A stretch of DNA of 64,000 nt, from contig NZ_SPNT01000002.1 in NCBI RefSeq assembly GCF_004959855.1, forward strand, positions 558,001 through 622,000, written 5' to 3'. Numbering within the stretch: the first letter of the stretch is position 1; each line of letters opens with the position of its first letter. The stretch comes from Nitratireductor sp. XY-223. Lineage in GTDB: Bacteria; Pseudomonadota; Alphaproteobacteria; Rhizobiales; Rhizobiaceae. Below, piece after piece: positions 46,558 to 56,206 of the stretch. Position numbers and translations under genes: made by a program. Below the pieces are notes generated by a model. It searched no databases. It saw only the letters and a program-made list of their open reading frames with translations, and was not told where the DNA came from.

Positions 46558-47739
46558 TCAGACCTCCCAGCGCACCGGCAGGGAGACGGGGCCGCGAAAC
46601 ACCCAGCCGCTCAATCGAGCCGGCTTGTCGTCATCCAGTTGCATGTTCGGCAGGCGGTCGAACAGTTTGGGAACCGCGATCTCGCCAACCATCTGGCGCG
46701 CGACCCAGGTGCCGGCGCAGAAATGCGGCCCGGCCCCGAAACCGAGATGCTGGCCGCGGTCGCGGAAGACATCGTAGGCATCGGGATCGGAAAACCGGCT
46801 TTGGTCGCGATTGGCCGCACCGACGCAGATTCCGAGCTGGTCGCCTTCCTTCAGCGCGGTGTCGCCGAGCACCGTGTCGCGTGTGACGCGCCGCGGATAC
46901 ATGCCGATCGGCGAGACCCAGCGCACCGCTTCCTCGAAGGCGGGCCGGTAGAGTTTGGGATCGGCCTCGACGCGGGCCCGCTGGTCGGGATTGAGCAGCA
47001 GCCCGTAGACCGTGGTGAGGATCGAATCGCGCGGCTCGTTGAGGCCGCCGCCGATGATCACCTTGATGTTGGCGCGGATCTGCTCGATGGAATGGGCGTG
47101 TTCGGCATGCAGCATCGACGACAGGATCGTGGCATCGGGCCTGTCCCGGTACCGGTCGAGCACGGCATCGATGGCGGCGTCGATCGCGTCCGAGGCCGCG
47201 GCGGCCCTCGTCGCGGTCTCCGGAACGGTGCCGTAATTGCTGACACCGTCCATCAGCGCCTGCGACCAGGCGGCAAGATCCTGCCAGGCGACATTCCTGA
47301 AACCGATCATTTCATTCAGGCACAGCGAGGCCATGGGGGCGGCGAAGCTGCCGAACAGGTCTGTCTCGCCGCTTTCGACAAAGGCATCGATGAGCCGGTC
47401 CGCGATGGCATCGAAAACCGGCGTCCAGTGGTTCTTCACCACGCCCGGGCGGAACGACGGCTCGATGGCCTTGCGCTCGACCTGGTGCGCCTCGTCGTCC
47501 TTGCGCATCAGCGAATGGCCCATGACCTTGTTCATCAGGGAGCCGGGATTGGTCGAGGCAAACCGGCCGTGATCGCGCTCGACCGTCATGATGTCGTCGA
47601 AACGGGTGACGAGGTTGATGCGCGCATCGCTCACCCAGACCGCGGAGGCCGCCTCGCGCATGCGGCGGAAGCTCGGATAGGGGTCGGCCGTCAGCGCGGC
47701 GATCGAGATGTCGTCCATGACTGGGACGGGCGTGGCCAT
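46558..47739 (-). CDS. Cytochrome P450
   Basis: A 393-residue soluble P450. ATG 47739 follows GCAGGAGGC on the minus strand, so the longer frame to 47769 is rejected. Motifs in order are the I-helix region VIIGGGLNEPRDSI (an unusual N-E-P-R-D-S in place of the common A/G-G-x-D/E-T), the K-helix EEAVRW with ExxR, and the haem loop FGAGPHFCAGTWVAR with the axial cysteine. It is in an operon with a 2Fe-2S ferredoxin and divergent from a LysR regulator whose probable box lies between them. Substrate is unknown; bacterial P450s of this kind hydroxylate terpenoids, steroids or alkyl chains. Confidence 0.95.
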   Translation of the reverse strand: MATPVPVMDDISIAALTADPYPSFRRMREAASAVWVSDARINLVTRFDDIMTVERDHGRFASTNPGSLMNKVMGHSLMRKDDEAHQVERKAIEPSFRPGVVKNHWTPVFDAIADRLIDAFVESGETDLFGSFAAPMASLCLNEMIGFRNVAWQDLAAWSQALMDGVSNYGTVPETATRAAAASDAIDAAIDAVLDRYRDRPDATILSSMLHAEHAHSIEQIRANIKVIIGGGLNEPRDSILTTVYGLLLNPDQRARVEADPKLYRPAFEEAVRWVSPIGMYPRRVTRDTVLGDTALKEGDQLGICVGAANRDQSRFSDPDAYDVFRDRGQHLGFGAGPHFCAGTWVARQMVGEIAVPKLFDRLPNMQLDDDKPARLSGWVFRGPVSLPVRWEV

Positions 47740-47813
47740 GAATGCCTCCTGCAATAATCGCTCTAGCATGTGCGCGGTGGGTTACTTGTCAATCAAATGA
47801 CCCTGATCTAATC

Positions 47814-47830
47814 TATCGAAAAATTCGATA
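47814..47830. promoter_or_regulatory. LysR-type operator, copy 1
   Basis: TATCGAAAAATTCGATA is a 7-bp inverted repeat around AAA, and its inner part has the T-N11-A spacing of LysR boxes. It lies 23 bases before the LysR start and 74 bases before the P450 start, in the shared divergent promoter region. Sixteen of its bases recur exactly at 52037-52052. Confidence 0.8.
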
Positions 47831-47853
47831 ACTAGTGTCACGGGCTTCACACA

Positions 47854-48768
47854 ATGGATGGTCAGGACGTCCTCAAGGTCGACTTTGCGGCGCTCAGGAC
47901 GCTGCAATATGTTCATGATTTCGGATCCTTCTCGAAGGCCGCGCATCGGCTGGGGCAGAACCAGTCGACGGTCAGCTACACCATCGCCCGGCTGCGCAAG
48001 GTGTTCGATGATCCGCTCTTCGTGCGCGAGGGCAACGGTGTGGCGGCGACCGACCGGTGCCGCGTCATCGTCGAGCACGCGGCACGGTTCCTTGAGGAGT
48101 TCCAGGGCGTCGCGCGGCGGCGGACCTTCGATCCGGCGACGGCCGCCGGTTCGGTCACCGTTTCATGCAACCACTGGGAACGGGTCATCATCCTGCCGCA
48201 GCTGATCGGACGCATGCGGCATCTGGCGCCGGGTATCCAGCTGCGGGTGCTCAGCTCCTCGGCGGTCGGCGAGGAACAGCTCAAACGGGGCGAATGCGAC
48301 ATCCTGCTGGGCCCGGTGCAGATCTCGGGCGAACAACTCTACAAGCGCAAGATCAGCATGGACCATTATGTGTGCATCATGGACCGGGACAATCCTTTCG
48401 CGGCCCGGACATTCGACTTCAAGGCCTACCAGTCGGCCAAACATGCGGTCGTCACCTACATGGGCAACTGGAGGCCGTTTTACCTCGATGCCCTGGAGGC
48501 GCGTGGCGGATCGATCGACAAGGTGATCGAACTTTCCGAATACGGCGACCTGGAGAGCTGCGTTGCCGGCACCGACCTGGTTGCCACCGTGCCGAACCGG
48601 CTTGCCGAAAAATTTTCCGACCGCGTCGTGCGCCGCGCGCTGCCCTTCAAGGTGGCGCTCGAGGTCGACATGTTCTGGACGATGCGCACCCATCGCTCGG
48701 CCATGCAGAAATGGGTCCGCGAGCTGGTTGCCGAGGCGGCCACCGATGGCCTGGCCGTGCAGCACTAG
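47854..48768 (+). CDS. LysR family transcriptional regulator
   Basis: A 304-residue LysR regulator with an N-terminal winged helix-turn-helix (LRTLQYVHDFGSFSKAAHRLGQNQSTVSYTIARLRKVFDDPLF) and an effector-binding domain from about residue 95. It is divergent from the P450 gene, the classical arrangement for a regulator of its neighbour, and an inverted repeat with T-N11-A spacing lies between. The stop codon TAG is part of the terminal CTAG of a repeat element that begins here. The effector is unknown. Confidence 0.95.
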   Translation: MDGQDVLKVDFAALRTLQYVHDFGSFSKAAHRLGQNQSTVSYTIARLRKVFDDPLFVREGNGVAATDRCRVIVEHAARFLEEFQGVARRRTFDPATAAGSVTVSCNHWERVIILPQLIGRMRHLAPGIQLRVLSSSAVGEEQLKRGECDILLGPVQISGEQLYKRKISMDHYVCIMDRDNPFAARTFDFKAYQSAKHAVVTYMGNWRPFYLDALEARGGSIDKVIELSEYGDLESCVAGTDLVATVPNRLAEKFSDRVVRRALPFKVALEVDMFWTMRTHRSAMQKWVRELVAEAATDGLAVQH

Positions 48769-49069
48769 ACCGTTTCATGGCTAGATTGAATCATTTGACC
48801 GCGGCGATTTTGATCGCTGGCTAGGCGGATTGCGCGCCGTGGTGCACCCCCACCACAAGCGCAAGCCAACGCAGTCAGGGGGCAAAATCGCCGGGCCCAT
48901 TCAGCCCAGAGTTTCAACACGATGATCCTATCAGGGGTGGCGGCAAATCGGCCCATCGGCGTCGTTGCGCCGCTTGCCCGATGCCCCACATCGCGCTGCG
49001 CAACGCGCCTAGCCGACTGGACCGATTTTCCGCCATCAAATGCTTCAAGCTAGCCATGAAACGGTCTAG
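48765..49069. mobile_element. Non-autonomous MITE-like element with 34-bp terminal inverted repeats
   Basis: The left end (48765-48798, beginning CTAGACCGTTTCATGGCTAG) and the right end (49036-49069, ending CTAGCCATGAAACGGTCTAG) are inverted copies that differ at about 2 of 34 positions. Weaker symmetry continues inward (GGCTAGGCG...TTGCGC on both sides), so the whole 305 bases could fold as one long imperfect hairpin. No transposase or credible ORF is inside. The left end supplies the stop codon of the LysR gene. I see no clear target duplication outside CTAG. Confidence 0.7.
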
Positions 49070-49107
49070 ATCCGGCACCCGGCGCCCCGTGGAGATGTCA
49101 GGTTGCT

Positions 49108-49605
49108 CTAGCGGCTGAATTCGATCTCGCTGAGTGTTACCGGCGTGCGCGAATTGGCGTCCGCAGACGCAATGGCGAAGCGATCCGGTGAAATGGTCCA
49201 CAACATGATGCCGTCGGATGTTTCCTCTGTCTTGGGATCGCGGACGCGGTAGCGGAAGGTGATCGTGTTGTCGCGGCTGACGCCATTGACCATCGTGCTG
49301 CCGGCGCCGAACGGATTGGACCAGCGACCCGTGTACCGGCCCGCTTTTTCCAGCGGCTCGACAAAGCCGTCGATGCGGCCGGTCCTGCCCGGCGAGGCGC
49401 ATTTCCCCGTCAGCGTCAGCCGCTCGATGTCCTTGCGGTAGGTGCCGGTCACCTTGCAGCGCACGGACTCCCGTTCGGAGCCGGCGGCCTCGCGCGCCCA
49501 GCCGGAGCCTGTCCACTTGCCGGCCAGCGCCTCAAGCGAATCGACCGCCCGGGCCGGCGTTAGCGGCATCAGGCAAGCAAGCACCACGATGATCGGCAAC
49601 CTCAT
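49108..49605 (-). CDS. Small exported protein of unknown function, partner of the RND exporter
   Basis: A 165-residue protein with a clear signal peptide (MRLPIIVVLACLMPLTPARA, cleavage after ARA). A beta-rich domain follows with LAGKWTGSGWAR, CKVTGTYRKDIERLTLTGKC, GRWSNPFG and DGIMLWTISPDRFAI. This looks like the lipocalin-like small domains that bind hydrophobic ligands, but I cannot name a family. ATG 49605 overlaps the RND stop by four bases (ATGA), so the two are tightly coupled; ATG 49617 is an alternative. Two cysteines (in VRCKV and GKCAS) could form a disulfide. Confidence 0.78.
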   Translation of the reverse strand: MRLPIIVVLACLMPLTPARAVDSLEALAGKWTGSGWAREAAGSERESVRCKVTGTYRKDIERLTLTGKCASPGRTGRIDGFVEPLEKAGRYTGRWSNPFGAGSTMVNGVSRDNTITFRYRVRDPKTEETSDGIMLWTISPDRFAIASADANSRTPVTLSEIEFSR

Positions 49606-51842
49606 GAACGTACCCATTTCAGGCGCATGAGGACCGGCAGCAGGAGCAAGTCGGCCAATAGCGCCGTAACAAAAGTCAGGATCAGCATAATGCCAAACAA
49701 ACGCACCATGATGAAGGGACTCAAAAGCGTGACCAGCAATCCGCCGGAAATCAGCAGCGTTGTGGCGATCATCACCCGTCCCGTGCGGTCGATGGCGAAA
49801 CGCAGCGCCTCATCGACGGAATGTCCGTCCGAGCGCTCCAGCCGGTACCGGTTGATGAAGTGAATACAGTCGTCAATGGCGATGCCGAAGGCAATGGTCA
49901 GCGCCATCATGGCCGTCGGATTGAGCAGTCCGCCGGTGAGAATATGCAGGGCGGACGCCGTCACGAACAGCGGAAGCGTGTTGGGAATGATCAGAACGAG
50001 AAACAGCGCCGGCCAGCGGAAGGCGGCCGCGACCACCAGGATCGCGATGATGCAGGCGGCGACGAGGCTGAGGCCGAGCTGGCCGATAACGACAACCGGC
50101 TCATGGCGCAAAATGACCGGAAAGCCGACGGTGCGGGCGGCGCCTGCCTCGCGCGCGGTGCGCTCGATGCGGTCGTGGGTTTCAAGTGTCTGGCGGCTCG
50201 CCATCGGCTCGGGCGCAAATGTGACGACCCGCGCCGTCCTGCCGTCGGGTGACAGAAGCTGGGTCAGCACGTTCTCGGGAAGCTCGGTAAGCTGGTCGCG
50301 TTGCGGCATGGTTTCCGGTTCGCCGATCCATCTTGCTATCGTAACAAGCGAGACAACCGCGTAATCCGGCGCCGCACTTGCGACCGCGTCGTTGAGCGCG
50401 GTCAGGCGCGCCCAGTCGTTCTGCTCCTCTTCATCGCCCTCCAGCGTCAATTCGTGCCAGATCGGGAAAAAGCCTCCGAAGGTCCGGTTGATATGCGCGT
50501 TGGCCTGCCGGATTTCGCTGTCCGCCGGCAAATAGCCGTCGAAGTGATACCACGGCTCGGTGCGCCAGAACCCCCAGATGCTGGCGACGGCGATAATCGC
50601 GCTCAATGCCACGACCATGCGGCCCCGGGAAAAGACCAGCCGGCGGAAGACCGGGGGGACCCTGAGCCATTCGGATCTGCCGTTGCGGGTTTTGTGCCCG
50701 ATGGCCACCGGAGCCAGCACCGCGAATGTCATGATGACGATGACATAGGAAACCATGACACCCAGGGCGCCAATCAGCGCGAATTCGCGCAGCGGCACGT
50801 TGTCGACCGCGGCGACGGCGGCAAAGGCGATCGCCGTAGTCACTGCCGTCAGACCGCAGGCCGGGCCGATATCGCGCACGCTGATCGCCGTCCGCTCCTT
50901 GACCGGCAGCTCGTTCGACGTTTTCAGGTAGTGCATCACCAGATGGATGCTGTCCGCCAGCCCGAGAACCAGGACAAGGACGGGAATGGTGTTGCTCATC
51001 ACCGTCACCGGAAGACCGAGCAACGGAAACAGCGCGATTGACGACATCGCCCCCAGCACCGCCGGTACGATGGCGGTCATCGCCGTGACCAGATTGCCGA
51101 AAACCAGGAACGCGATGACAAGCGCGAACAGGCACCCGATCGCATTCAGCGTGACGAGATCGCTTCTCATTCCGCCAACGATTTCGAAAGCGATCGCATC
51201 CTCGCCGGTAACGGCACGGGTGAACCGGTCATCGACATAGGTGTCGACCACATCGCGGATATCGGCGTAGATCCGCCGCTGGCCGTCGCGGTCGACCGCC
51301 GGATCCACCGATACGGAAACGAGGATGGTCCGATTGTCGTCGCCGATCATCGAGGGCTGATTGGCCGCGCCCTGGCGGTAGGCCTGCAGGCGGTCCGTCA
51401 GCGTGTTGGAGGTAATCTCGTCGGGAAAGACCGGCTCGCCCGGATATTGCGGGTGATTTCTCGAAAACCGCGCCGAAAAGGGCGACAGCACGGTCAGCAC
51501 GTCGTCCATCAGCGCCAGTTCCAGGGTCATCTCGCGCAGTTGATCCAGGTCCTGTGGCGTAAAGTCCGTGTCGGTCGAAACCAGGACAATGAAATCCGTC
51601 GTCCTGGCGCCCATCGTGCGTTCGAACTGCCTGTAATTGTTGGCATGAATGCTGTCCGAGGACATGCTGCGCTCGATGTCGTCGTCGAAGCGAATGTAAT
51701 TCATCGAGGCGAATGTGACGGCGACGACGATACAAAGGAAGATGGCGGACAGGATCGGCCACCGCACTGCGAGGAGGCCCGGATAGTCCAGGCCGAATCC
51801 GGAAATTGCCCTGCGCTGTATGCCGGAGATTTCGCCCGTCAT
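49602..51842 (-). CDS. RND superfamily (MMPL-type) exporter
   Basis: A 746-residue polytopic protein with the two-fold RND plan: transmembrane segment 1 near 27-47, a large periplasmic loop (about 48-220), five segments, a second loop and a final bundle. MMPL/sterol-sensing-like features include VLVLGLADSIHLVMHYL in the first half and TIAFGIAIDDCIHFINRYRLE in the second, with the aspartate pairs used for proton coupling. Relatives export lipids, hopanoids or other hydrophobic molecules. It has no adjacent membrane-fusion protein or outer-membrane channel. It is coupled to a small exported protein, and a LysR-type operator lies 195 bases upstream. Confidence 0.9.
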   Translation of the reverse strand: MTGEISGIQRRAISGFGLDYPGLLAVRWPILSAIFLCIVVAVTFASMNYIRFDDDIERSMSSDSIHANNYRQFERTMGARTTDFIVLVSTDTDFTPQDLDQLREMTLELALMDDVLTVLSPFSARFSRNHPQYPGEPVFPDEITSNTLTDRLQAYRQGAANQPSMIGDDNRTILVSVSVDPAVDRDGQRRIYADIRDVVDTYVDDRFTRAVTGEDAIAFEIVGGMRSDLVTLNAIGCLFALVIAFLVFGNLVTAMTAIVPAVLGAMSSIALFPLLGLPVTVMSNTIPVLVLVLGLADSIHLVMHYLKTSNELPVKERTAISVRDIGPACGLTAVTTAIAFAAVAAVDNVPLREFALIGALGVMVSYVIVIMTFAVLAPVAIGHKTRNGRSEWLRVPPVFRRLVFSRGRMVVALSAIIAVASIWGFWRTEPWYHFDGYLPADSEIRQANAHINRTFGGFFPIWHELTLEGDEEEQNDWARLTALNDAVASAAPDYAVVSLVTIARWIGEPETMPQRDQLTELPENVLTQLLSPDGRTARVVTFAPEPMASRQTLETHDRIERTAREAGAARTVGFPVILRHEPVVVIGQLGLSLVAACIIAILVVAAAFRWPALFLVLIIPNTLPLFVTASALHILTGGLLNPTAMMALTIAFGIAIDDCIHFINRYRLERSDGHSVDEALRFAIDRTGRVMIATTLLISGGLLVTLLSPFIMVRLFGIMLILTFVTALLADLLLLPVLMRLKWVRS

Positions 51843-52036
51843 ACGATTCCCGGTCGAATGCGGGTGGTTGCCATCGAGCCGACGATGCCGCTCATTTGTT
51901 TGTTTTCCTTGTCATCCGGCCCGGTCCCCTAATTGCCGACACCGCTGGCAGAAACTATTGGCACACTGCGAGCGCGACGAAAAGTCCGGTCAAATAAAAA
52001 CCGGTTTACCAGGTTAATCGCGGACGCAAACAGTCC

Positions 52037-52052
52037 ATCGAAAAATTCGATA
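52037..52052. promoter_or_regulatory. LysR-type operator, copy 2
   Basis: ATCGAAAAATTCGATA is identical over 16 bases to the site in the P450/LysR promoter region, including the T-N11-A spacing. It lies 195 bases upstream of the RND start and 253 bases upstream of the TRAP start, so the RND operon is the likelier target. Confidence 0.75.
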
Positions 52053-52125
52053 GGTCGCATCAAGGCCATCCGATTGACAACTGGCGGGAACGGAACGCAC
52101 CAATGCGCCCGGCCAATGCGAACCT

Positions 52126-52140
52126 GTCCGCATAGCGGAC
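52126..52140. promoter_or_regulatory. Palindrome upstream of the TRAP operon, possible regulator site
   Basis: GTCCGC-ATA-GCGGAC is a perfect 6-bp inverted repeat with a 3-base centre. TCCGCATAGCGGA-type palindromes resemble sites of some IclR-family regulators in alphaproteobacteria, but no IclR gene is in the window. It lies 165 bases before the TRAP start codon. Confidence 0.4.
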
Positions 52141-52304
52141 AATCCCGGTTTGGCCTTTGCCACCGACCGGCGACGGCAGTTAGCAATGGTGGCTGTTCTT
52201 GGGGCTTTTTATGGTTTAGCGTAACAACAAGGTCCTCGAAAAGAGGGCGTTCTGCGCGGACCGGCAGGCAGGAGGTGCCGGGGTCCGCTTAAGGGAGGAT
52301 ACAC

Positions 52305-53321
52305 GTGAACAGACTCTTCAAGCTTGCTGCATCCGCGGCAATTTTCGTCAGCGCAACGGCCGGCGCAATGGCCGCGGACTACAATTTCACCATCGCCGGC
52401 TGGGCGCCGCCGACACACGGGCTGAACTCGATCATGTGGCCGAACATGATCAAGATGATGGAGGAAGCCTCCGACGGTCAGGTCACCGCCGAAATCAAGT
52501 ACGGGCTGGCGCCGCCGCCCGCGCTGATGGACCTCATCATAGACGGTGCCGCCGACATGGCCGTCATCTTTCACGGATATCAGCCCGGACGTTTCGTCGG
52601 CACCAAGCTGATCGAGCTGCCCGGATATGAAGGCAATGCCGAGCAGGCTTCGGTCGCCTACTGGCGGGTCCACGAGAAACACCTTGAAGCGCTCGACGAA
52701 CACAAGGGCGTCAAGCTGCTGGCACTGCACACACACGGGCCGGGCCAGATGCACACCAATTCGAATGTCGGATCGCTCTCCGATCTCGACGGCCTGAAGA
52801 CGCGCATCGGCGGCGGCGTTGCCGGTGACGTCGGCACTGAACTGGGCCTGGTCGGTATTCGCGTTCCCGCGCCGAAGGTCTACGAAACCCTGGCGTCCGG
52901 CGCCGCGGACGCGGTCGCCATGCCGATGGAATCGCGCAAGGGCTTCAAGCTGACCGAGGTCGCCAAGAATGTCTACGAGATGCCCGGTGGTTTTTATCGC
53001 GGCTCCTTCGCCGTGATCATGAACGAGGAGGCGTTCGACAAGCTTCCGGACGACGTCAAGGCGGCGCTTGAGAGCGAAGTCTTCGGCGAGGTGGCCAGCC
53101 GCATGCTCGGCGCTGCCTGGGATCAGATCGACAGCGAGGGGATCGCGGTCACCAAGGCGGCCGATGACAACTCCATCCAGATCGCGTCGGATGCGGATGT
53201 CGCCGCCTATCAACCGATCATCGACAAGGTGACGGCGAGCGTTCTTACCGAGCTTTCCGACAAGGGGGTCGACGCCAAGGCCGCCCATGAGATGATCCAG
53301 AAGGAAATGTCGGCCGAGTAA
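52305..53321 (+). CDS. TRAP transporter substrate-binding protein (DctP family)
   Basis: A 338-residue periplasmic binding protein. The GTG start at 52305 follows AAGGGAGGA. The signal peptide ends at AGAMAADY. The DctP fold is seen in WAPPTHGLNSIMWPNMIKMMEEAS, the family arginine region in GLKTRIGGGVAGDVGTELG and PAPKVYETLASGAADAVAMP. It supplies ligand to the QM membrane complex encoded next. Ligands of this group are usually organic acids, including keto acids and sulfonates. Substrate cannot be named. Confidence 0.94.
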   Translation: MNRLFKLAASAAIFVSATAGAMAADYNFTIAGWAPPTHGLNSIMWPNMIKMMEEASDGQVTAEIKYGLAPPPALMDLIIDGAADMAVIFHGYQPGRFVGTKLIELPGYEGNAEQASVAYWRVHEKHLEALDEHKGVKLLALHTHGPGQMHTNSNVGSLSDLDGLKTRIGGGVAGDVGTELGLVGIRVPAPKVYETLASGAADAVAMPMESRKGFKLTEVAKNVYEMPGGFYRGSFAVIMNEEAFDKLPDDVKAALESEVFGEVASRMLGAAWDQIDSEGIAVTKAADDNSIQIASDADVAAYQPIIDKVTASVLTELSDKGVDAKAAHEMIQKEMSAE

Positions 53322-53359
53322 GTCGGTTCGCCGGCTAATAACCTTCGAGGGTGATTGTC

Positions 53360-53380
53360 GGCGCGGCCAGCGGTCGCGCC
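53360..53380 (+). other. Hairpin between the TRAP P and Q genes
   Basis: GGCGCGGCC (53360-53368) and GGTCGCGCC (53372-53380) form a 9-bp stem with one mismatch and a 3-base loop, in the 96-base gap after the binding-protein gene. There is no U tract. Such hairpins often raise the level of binding-protein mRNA relative to the permease genes. Confidence 0.45.
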
Positions 53381-53417
53381 GGTCAGGATCAGCCAGGGGC
53401 CGTTCGGGGATTCTAGC

Positions 53418-53924
53418 ATGAGCATTACCGTGCGCTGGGCAAGGCGTTTCACGCACCTGCCGGTGCTGTTGGCAAGCGCGGCCCTCTTCATACTGATGGC
53501 GATGACCTTCGCGGATGTCATCCTGCGGTCGGTCTTCAACGCCCCCATCGAGGCAGCGACGGAACTGACGCGCATGCTGATGGCGATCGTGGTGTTCTCG
53601 GTGCTGCCGGTGCTTTCCGTTCGCGAGGGCCATATCGTCGTCGACCTGATGGACCCGTTCTACCGCAGCGCCCTCGTGGAACGCCTCCGCGATGCCGTGA
53701 TTTCGCTTGCCTGCGGCGCCATGCTGATCCTGCCCGCCGAACGGGTGCTGGTGCTCGCCGAAAGGGCGCGGTCCTACGGCGATCTCACCGAGTATCTCAA
53801 CATTCCGCAGTTCTATATCGGCTGGTTCATCGCGATCATGACCTATCTGACCGCCTTTGTGCTCATTGCGCGCGGCGCGCTGACGCTGTTCGCGCCCAGG
53901 CTCCTGGAAGACAGCGATGCTTGA
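53418..53924 (+). CDS. TRAP transporter small permease subunit (DctQ family)
   Basis: A 168-residue membrane protein with four transmembrane segments (about 14-36, 52-70, 89-110 and 130-154). It has the DctQ hallmarks VILRSVFNAPIEAATELTRMLM and REGHIVVDLM. ATG 53418 is preferred over the open extension to 53355 because GGGGA precedes it and the family start matches. It overlaps the large permease gene by eight bases. Confidence 0.92.
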   Translation: MSITVRWARRFTHLPVLLASAALFILMAMTFADVILRSVFNAPIEAATELTRMLMAIVVFSVLPVLSVREGHIVVDLMDPFYRSALVERLRDAVISLACGAMLILPAERVLVLAERARSYGDLTEYLNIPQFYIGWFIAIMTYLTAFVLIARGALTLFAPRLLEDSDA

Positions 53925-55233
53925 GGCGGGAATCGGATTTGCCGCCGTCCTGGTGCTGGTGCTGCTGCGTATTCCCATCGCCTTCGCCATGGGGCTGGTC
54001 GGGATGATCGGCTACATGATGGAGACGAGCTACCGCGGCGCCATCTCCATGGTTGCCCGGCTGATCATCGATGCGAGCCAGGACTACGGCCTCAGCGTCG
54101 TGCCGCTGTTCATCCTGATGGGGCTGTTCGTCAACAAGGGCGGCATCAGCCGCGAGCTCTACCAGGTTTCCTACGCCTTTCTCGGGCACCTGCGCGGCGG
54201 GCTGGCCATGGCGACGATCGTCGCCTGCGGCGGTTTCGCCGCGGTGTGCGGCTCGTCGCTGGCGACGGCCGCGACCATGTCCAAGGTGGCCATGCCGCAG
54301 ATGCGCAAATACGGCTATGCCGACAGCCTTTCGACCGCCTCGATCGCGGCCGGCGGGACGCTCGGTATCCTGATCCCGCCATCGGTGATCCTGGTCATCT
54401 ACGGGCTGCTGACGGAGACGTCGATCGGCAAGCTGTTCATCGCCGGCATCATCCCGGGCATGCTCGGCATAATCTTCTACCTGTGCGCGGTGGCCTATAC
54501 GGTGACCCGCAACCCGGACGCCGGGCCCGCCGGCCAGCGCACCGTGTGGCGCGACCGGCTGGCGGCGCTCAAGGGCGTGTGGGCGGTGCTGTTCCTGTTC
54601 TTCCTGGTGATCGGCGGGCTCTACGGCGCGCTCGATTTCTGGCCGATCCACATTGCCTTCTCGCCGACCGAGGCCGCCGGCATGGGGGCGGCCGGCGCCT
54701 TCCTCATCGCGCTGTCGCGCCGCAATCTGAGCGTCCGCGACACGCTCGAGGTGCTGAGGGAAACCGCCTTCACCACCGCTTCGCTGTTCAGCGTGCTGAT
54801 CGGCGCGTGGATCTTCTCCAATTTCGTCAACATCGCCGGGCTGCCGGAAGCGCTGCTCGGCGCCGTCACCGCCTATTCAGTATCGCCCTGGGTGGTGATG
54901 GTCTTCATCCTGCTGATCTATATCGGCCTCGGCTGCATCTTCGAGAGCCTGTCGATGCTGCTTCTCACCGTGCCGATCTTCTTTCCGCTGGTGCGCGACC
55001 TCGGGTTCGACCCGGTCTGGTTCGGCGTCGTCGTCGTGGTGGTGACCGAGATCAGCCTGATCACGCCGCCGGTGGGGATGAATGTGTTCGTCCTCAAGGG
55101 GGTCGTCGGGGACGTTCCGACAAGCACCATCTTCCGGGGCGTCACGCCGTTCTGGGTGGCCGACATCTTCCGGCTGGCGCTGCTGGTCGGCATACCGGCG
55201 CTGGCGCTCTATCTGCCGAGCCAGATGGGCTGA
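53917..55233 (+). CDS. TRAP transporter large permease subunit (DctM family)
   Basis: A 438-residue permease that carries the transport path and uses a sodium gradient. About 12 transmembrane segments are visible, with family motifs VVPLFILMGLFVNKGGIS, VCGSSLATAATMSKVAMPQM, GTLGILIPPSVILVIYG, and FESLSMLLLTVPIFFPLV. ATG 53917 overlaps the small permease gene. It completes a P-Q-M operon and is convergent with the flavoenzyme gene at 55262. Confidence 0.95.
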   Translation: MLEAGIGFAAVLVLVLLRIPIAFAMGLVGMIGYMMETSYRGAISMVARLIIDASQDYGLSVVPLFILMGLFVNKGGISRELYQVSYAFLGHLRGGLAMATIVACGGFAAVCGSSLATAATMSKVAMPQMRKYGYADSLSTASIAAGGTLGILIPPSVILVIYGLLTETSIGKLFIAGIIPGMLGIIFYLCAVAYTVTRNPDAGPAGQRTVWRDRLAALKGVWAVLFLFFLVIGGLYGALDFWPIHIAFSPTEAAGMGAAGAFLIALSRRNLSVRDTLEVLRETAFTTASLFSVLIGAWIFSNFVNIAGLPEALLGAVTAYSVSPWVVMVFILLIYIGLGCIFESLSMLLLTVPIFFPLVRDLGFDPVWFGVVVVVVTEISLITPPVGMNVFVLKGVVGDVPTSTIFRGVTPFWVADIFRLALLVGIPALALYLPSQMG

Positions 55234-55261: not shown

Positions 55262-56206
55262 CTACTGCGCCGCTACGATCCGGTCTTCGGGGTAAATTTC
55301 TTCCCGCGCCCGTGACTGGCACAGGTCGAACACCAGCCAGGCGGCCGCCATGTTGCCCATGTGGATCGCGGTGTTGGTGTTCTGGTGCCCGCCATAGGTC
55401 AGGTCGCCGGCGGCGAAAATGCCGCGGCGCCCGGTCCGGTAGCATTCGTCGATCTTGACATATCCGTCGTCGCTCAGCGGCAGGTCGAGCGATTTCACCA
55501 GTTCGCTCTGGGTCTGGTGCGGCCAGACAAGGAGGATATCGCGCGGAACGCGGCGGCCGGAACGCAGGACGACATGAGTCAGCTTTTCGCCGCTGCCCTC
55601 GACGGCCTCGATCCGCCCCGGAATGAGCCGGATACCCAGCGCCTCGATGGCTTCGGCGCGCTCCGGAGGAACATCGATACCCGGCTCGACGAACATGACG
55701 AGATCGTCGGTCCAGTTGCGGTAGATTTCCGCGGCGGCGAGGATTTCCGGGCGGTGGACATAGACGCCCCAGGACTGGTTCCTGACCTCGTATCCCTGGC
55801 AGAAGGGGCAGTTGATGATGGACGTGCCCCAATAGTCCTTCAGGTCTTCGATGCTGGGATATTTGTCGACCATTCCGGTGGTCATCAGCAGCCGCCTGGC
55901 ACGGAAGGAGGATCCGCCCTGCGTGGACAGCACAAAACCGTCCTCTTCCTCGTGAACCTCTGCAATCTCGGCCGATTTCAGGTCCGCATAGCCATAGGTG
56001 CGGATATTGGCGGCGATGCTCTCGCGCACCTCGTCAGGCGTTGCCATGTCCATGGTCGGATAGGCGCCAACATGTGGGGACGCCGCGTTCCGTGCAGGAA
56101 TGGGCGAATCAAAGACAATGGTGCGCATCATCGACCGCGACAATGTCAATGCGGCTGTCAGACCCGCCGGTCCGCCGCCGATGATCGCAACCTGGTAATC
56201 CGTCAT
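55262..56206 (-). CDS. FAD-dependent pyridine nucleotide-disulfide oxidoreductase, thioredoxin reductase-like
   Basis: A 314-residue flavoprotein of the thioredoxin reductase fold. The FAD-binding motif is IIGGGPAGLTAALTLS at residues 8-23. The redox pair is C133-P-F-C136 (INCPFCQGYEV) in place of the CATC of classical thioredoxin reductase. A C-terminal FAD contact, AAGDLTYGGHQNTNTAIHMG, is also present. The NADPH-binding G-x-G-x-x-G/A segment of TrxR is not obvious, a feature of the smaller relatives that reduce other disulfides or make them. A role as P450 or ferredoxin reductase is conceivable but unsupported by location. Confidence 0.88.
   Translation of the reverse strand: MTDYQVAIIGGGPAGLTAALTLSRSMMRTIVFDSPIPARNAASPHVGAYPTMDMATPDEVRESIAANIRTYGYADLKSAEIAEVHEEEDGFVLSTQGGSSFRARRLLMTTGMVDKYPSIEDLKDYWGTSIINCPFCQGYEVRNQSWGVYVHRPEILAAAEIYRNWTDDLVMFVEPGIDVPPERAEAIEALGIRLIPGRIEAVEGSGEKLTHVVLRSGRRVPRDILLVWPHQTQSELVKSLDLPLSDDGYVKIDECYRTGRRGIFAAGDLTYGGHQNTNTAIHMGNMAAAWLVFDLCQSRAREEIYPEDRIVAAQ

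Follow-up and report, generated by a model that had tools for sequence, protein, structure and literature searches.

The LysR-type regulator encoded at position 47854 of the window, by which we mean the whole 64,000-nucleotide stretch of DNA from Nitratireductor sp. XY-223 that was analysed, very probably binds two copies of the same composite operator, and would thereby co-activate a cytochrome P450-ferredoxin gene pair and the TRAP transporter genes dctPQM, probably for the uptake and oxidation of an aromatic acid. The prediction of a local LysR regulon, which is a familiar kind of bacterial control, is well supported by the sequence comparisons described below. A literature search, judged by titles and the first part of the abstracts, identified no paper on such a regulon, and as far as these searches go, it is undescribed. 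The features of the locus are listed in Table 1.

Table 1. Genes and operator elements of the locus, in window coordinates; offsets are counted from the first position of the dyad.
Feature	Position	Strand	Basis or detail
2Fe-2S ferredoxin, 106 aa	46235..46555	-	Pfam Fer2
Cytochrome P450	46558..47739	-	Pfam p450; nearest solved chain 6g71, 9.5e-105
Operator 1, remainder	47787..47807	-	AT at +23 (47807-47806), ATT at +32 (47798-47796), TTGACA at +38 (47792-47787)
Operator 1, dyad ATC-N9-GAT, predicted recognition site	47815..47829	-	sequence, model search
LysR-type regulator, 304 aa	47854..48768	+	Pfam HTH_1 and LysR_substrate
Operator 2, dyad ATC-N9-GAT	52037..52051	+	sequence, model search
Operator 2, remainder	52059..52079	+	ATC at +23 (52059-52061), ATC at +32 (52068-52070), TTGACA at +38 (52074-52079)
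TRAP solute-binding protein DctP	52305..53321	+	Pfam DctP; nearest solved 4p56, 7nr2
TRAP small permease DctQ	53355..53924	+	Pfam DctQ; start assigned mechanically, the true one may be a downstream ATG
TRAP large permease DctM	53917..55233	+	Pfam DctM

The 16-mer ATCGAAAAATTCGATA occurs in two identical copies in the window, at positions 47815-47830 and 52037-52052, both of which are intergenic. It contains a 6+3+6 dyad in which the arms ATCGAA and TTCGAT flank the spacer AAA, giving the spacings T-N11-A and ATC-N9-GAT. The coordinates and the palindromic sequence are as reported in an earlier note on this DNA, and its claim that a chance match is very unlikely is borne out, since base composition predicts 0.0002 exact copies genome-wide versus the two that were found (6,185,659 bases in 59 contigs searched). 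The same genome-wide search recovered only one further place within two mismatches of the 16-mer, C22:194553-194568. With the spacer left free, the dyad alone, ATCGAANNNTTCGAT, is without specificity: it occurs at five places in the window genome, at five in Hoeflea poritis and at zero to two in each of the other six genus genomes. The regulator of H. poritis is 88% identical to the protein encoded at 47854, and both operators are present there at the orthologous places, the second dyad having an altered spacer (ATCGAATAATTCGAT) and the same arms.

Each palindrome is part of a larger element with a direction. At both places, the dyad is followed by 22 nucleotides and the hexamer TTGACA, with AT at +23 and AT(C/T) at +32. 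Operator 1 faces the P450 and ferredoxin genes on the minus strand and is located 24 bp 5' of the lysR start codon, and operator 2 faces the dctP/TRAP operon on the plus strand, in which DctP, DctQ and DctM are encoded together. The palindrome had been noted correctly before, while the surrounding element, from which each copy gets its direction, had been overlooked. The composite pattern ATC-N9-[GC]AT-N7-AT-N12-ATTG, which was drawn up with the window sites in view, has two matches in the window genome, namely the two operators. Five places in H. poritis match it, namely the P450 operator and four others. The TRAP operator there is not among them, as it reads GTTG in place of ATTG.

The TTGACA hexamers are the predicted -35 elements of the P450 gene (operator 1) and of dctP (operator 2). 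Against the proposed regulon, a sigma-70 scan of positions 47600-52400 returned a single promoter-like site, located at neither operator, where 1.2 were expected, and it detected no consensus promoter of this type at the operators. The open frame of the P450 begins at 47769, but the start at 47739 is likelier because the upstream ATG falls at the expected -10. The predicted leader of dctP is long, about 195 nt, which also speaks against the proposal. The segment immediately 5' of dctP (52150-52304) is well conserved in H. poritis, which may reflect a long leader or a second promoter.

To place the locus among its relatives, loci were picked by regulator similarity, independent of operator or neighbouring genes, from all genomes in which the best match was at 1e-45 or below; the plasmid loci are 10 of the 24 matches with more than 38% identity among the best 40 of 211 records, and L057 (28% identity, no P450) was excluded. 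In 27 of the 30 relative loci, a P450 match lies no more than 6 kb from the regulator, counting L093, where it is in pieces. A TRAP match is near the regulator in 13 of the 30, that of L101 being fragmentary, weak and on the opposite strand, and 17 have no TRAP match near the regulator; both P450 and TRAP are nearby in 12. Several of these loci form a run in one direction, such as P450-Fdx-DctP-DctQ-DctM in the congeneric G001, P450-Fdx-DctP-DctM in G1064 and DctP-168-aa ORF-DctM-P450 in G968. G272 and G399 contain the run P450-Fdx-DctP, and G321 contains P450 and DctP with no ferredoxin match. On a Paracoccus aestuarii plasmid, the run is P450-Fdx-FAD oxidoreductase-TRAP with pobA across the regulator, and Rhizobium plasmids contain P450-Fdx-FAD oxidoreductase near fumarylacetoacetate hydrolase genes, in one case also near gentisate 1,2-dioxygenase. 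The P450 and TRAP genes are thus often found in one run in relatives, in several of them starting from a single operator of this kind, and the window has them as two units, each with an operator. Two of the loci deviate in their oxygenase. At L075:9253-14121, the regulator is divergent from a PhyH-type oxygenase followed by DctPQM with no P450 match, the oxygenase replacing the P450, and at L093:4686-5874, on a Paracoccus liaowanqingii plasmid, the P450 matches lie in pieces without an annotated gene, which looks like a broken copy.

The earlier note had assigned to the regulator an oxidation-plus-export module that included the RND gene next to operator 2. Operator 2 might control the RND gene, and hence export, alone or together with the TRAP operon: it lies between dctP and the divergently oriented RND gene, an arrangement kept in H. 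poritis, and in L054, a relative, an RND gene is encoded close to the regulator, albeit one of the AcrB family, to which the window gene does not belong. However, the conserved half-sites and the TTG are confined to the side that faces dctP; on the RND side of operator 2, the window sequence has none of the conserved triplets at its place, and no operator layout faces the RND gene. Its homologue is near the regulator in just 1 of the 30 relative loci (H. poritis), and at 51950-52010, between operator 2 and the start of the RND gene, a separate block that is also conserved in H. poritis may hold an RND promoter of its own. The RND gene was therefore rejected as a target on operator direction and neighbourhood, despite the gene in L054, and we consider its control by operator 2 unlikely. 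Thus, the proposed control of P450-ferredoxin by the regulator, and of the TRAP genes, which had been included as a perhaps, is supported, and the export part, for which the position of the RND gene alone speaks, is not. The module is better read as uptake and oxidation than as oxidation and export.

The predicted operators are conserved beside orthologous regulators. In an ungapped alignment of 15 rows, comprising 13 P450 promoters and two TRAP promoters with near relatives included, ATC (positions 1-3), AT (14-15), AT (23-24) and TTG (38-40) are invariant in all 15 rows. The P450 promoters are from 13 LysR-P450 loci (the window, L034, L053-L056 and L068-L074), and all rows were brought into register by eye; the boxes of L054 and L055 were located by counting back from the TTG, so that the agreement of these two rows there is by construction. 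The T-N11-A dyad upstream of the divergent gene is kept with the orthologous regulator. The operator is also present at three further orthologues that are located beside a PhyH-type oxygenase (L075) or LigB-type dioxygenases (L076, L077). A further alignment, A2, excludes L055 and L074 as near-duplicates of L054 and L073, and also L090, L091 and L094, where the site is doubtful or absent, and the first regulator of L102.

The pattern ATC-N9-[GC]AT-N22-TTG was fixed in advance and then tried on 15 newly fetched loci with 16 regulators between them. It matched beside 12 of these 16 held-out orthologous regulators, three of the matches (L090, L101 and L102a) being weak or oddly placed, where dinucleotide shuffles gave an expectation of 0.07, and the idea that the box is conserved at orthologous loci is thereby upheld. 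Among the misses, L098 and L100 have AAT in place of [GC]AT, L091 has TGG in place of TTG, and no site for the pattern was found in L094. A looser pattern that allows AAT matched 14 of 16, but it was set once the misses were known and is not used as evidence. In the paralogue control, which covered loci L010-L033 (24 of 24), the preset pattern was found beside 1 of the 24 LysR genes.

A sequence-only model that left out the genus (R2), built from 22 operators outside it, was run on eight genus genomes, with the best 150 first-look candidates scored in each. Among these candidates, the two window operators rank first and second in their genome, with 32.7 bits for the TRAP promoter and 26.3 bits for the P450 promoter, and the next, unrelated place scored 12.4 bits. 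The corresponding scores in H. poritis were 29.3 and 26.1 bits, also among the best 150 candidates, and G001, G002 and G005 each had a single match on the same basis, of 24.2-25.9 bits, in the gap between regulator and P450. Scores of 24.2 bits or more at the regulator were thus reached in five of the eight genomes, which are those with an orthologue of at least 42% identity. In G003, G004 and G006, where the best regulator match is 9.8e-30 or weaker, the best 150 candidates included nothing above 16.9 bits. The highest score at any other place across the eight genomes, again among the best 150 candidates in each, was 17.1 bits.

These distributions bear on which protein binds the operators. 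The window genome encodes many LysR paralogues, with 29 matches to the protein at 47854 at E 0.001, and the operators could be real and yet be bound by one of these rather than by the neighbouring regulator. However, strong operator matches in the eight genomes are confined to the five that encode an orthologue of the regulator, at its gene, and the preset pattern is nearly absent from the paralogue loci, which makes binding by another LysR-type protein very improbable. Still less credible is an origin of the repeat by chance or as a dispersed mobile repeat, which is refuted by the cross-genus model search and the presence of only two exact copies: there is indeed a dispersed repeat, about 305 bp long, between the two boxes, but the 16-mer lies outside it and the dyad arms and spacing are kept across genera. 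The dispersed repeat (48766-49070) is a MITE-like element with inverted ends, of which the genome contains 12 copies of at least 250 bp at at least 84% identity, this one included, and it has no counterpart at the corresponding position of the H. poritis genome.

The nearest solved relatives of the regulator, the P450 and DctP, together with the aromatic-catabolism genes near the regulator in relatives (pobA, gentisate dioxygenase and LigB genes), suggest a methoxylated or similar aromatic acid as the substrate class. For the regulator, the closest proteins of known structure are the 1uth/1utb group, which we take to be DntR, and 4rns, an activator of PCP degradation. The regulator resembles the DntR/NahR- and PcpR-type LysR proteins, although these have other targets and the similarity is only about E 1e-22 and weaker. 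The P450 resembles aryl-O-demethylases, with 6g71, presumably a demethylase of methoxylated phenylacetates, as by far the best solved match, followed by 8u09, 9ia1 and then O-demethylases, including GcoA at about 1e-44. Literature searches for CYP1232A24 or CYP1232 gave no match, and those for 6G71 or the papaverine P450 gave no paper fitting by title and none on a methoxylated-phenylacetate demethylase. Like TarPQM and related aromatic-acid transporters, dctPQM encodes a TRAP system, and the solved proteins nearest to its DctP are presumably mandelate- and aromatic-acid-binding proteins. From this homology and the neighbouring genes in relatives, DctP may be an aromatic-acid-binding protein as well. 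The P450 and the ferredoxin of the locus may belong to a class I P450 system, which also comprises an FAD reductase, but a gene for such a reductase is adjacent only in relatives; an FAD protein encoded at 55262-56206 resembles thioredoxin reductase. GcoA is described as an aryl-O-demethylase in PMC6021390, but unlike GcoA, the P450 here pairs with a separate small ferredoxin rather than with GcoB.

In the regulon that we propose, the LysR-type protein would bind both copies of the composite operator by recognising the dyad. The +23 triplet would serve as the activation site of the effector-free regulator and the +32 triplet as that of the effector-bound one, a scheme modelled on the alternative activation sites set out in PMC11739112. 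The effector would shift the regulator and thereby cause activation at the TTG, which would be the -35 element, and operator 1 may also provide autorepression of lysR. Most likely, dctPQM would import a methoxylated or similar aromatic acid, which the P450-ferredoxin system would attack by O-demethylation or hydroxylation, and the imported acid would also be the inducer.

The layout invites a comparison with the nod box, for which ATC-N9-GAT is given as the motif in PMC5596368. As in the NodD system, a LysR-type regulator is divergent from its target. Nod boxes were located by searching plasmid records with a nod-box consensus, which matched 193 records, 172 of them from Rhizobium or Sinorhizobium. 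The two real nod boxes that were examined, one before glmS-nolF and the other beside a LysR gene, are in register with the operators at ATC-N9-GAT, AT at +23 and ATC at +32, but have TTT at +38, where the operators have TTG. On the operator matrix, they score 8.0 and 10.1 bits, as compared to 31.6-52.3 bits for the 28 operators, and model R1 had no match up to E 10 at the nod-box loci (L103 and L104). Furthermore, the regulator at 47854 is 21% identical to the LysR protein adjacent to the nod box, and the locus contains no nod genes. Identity with the nod box and NodD was rejected on the low matrix scores, the lack of an R1 match and the 21% identity. A tentative reading is that the architecture of the nod box extends beyond nodulation, and that nod boxes and these operators either share an origin or converge on a layout of aromatic-sensing LysR proteins, which NodD would later have used for the sensing of flavonoids. 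The low nod-box scores and the lack of an R1 match make this parallel less likely. The operators nevertheless supply a non-symbiotic comparison for the nod box.

With the two operators, what look like separate transcription units become one predicted regulon with a testable class of inducer, and the operator model is able to find the same regulon in other genomes. Genes that relatives have in a single run are here distributed over two units, and a copy of the operator precedes each.
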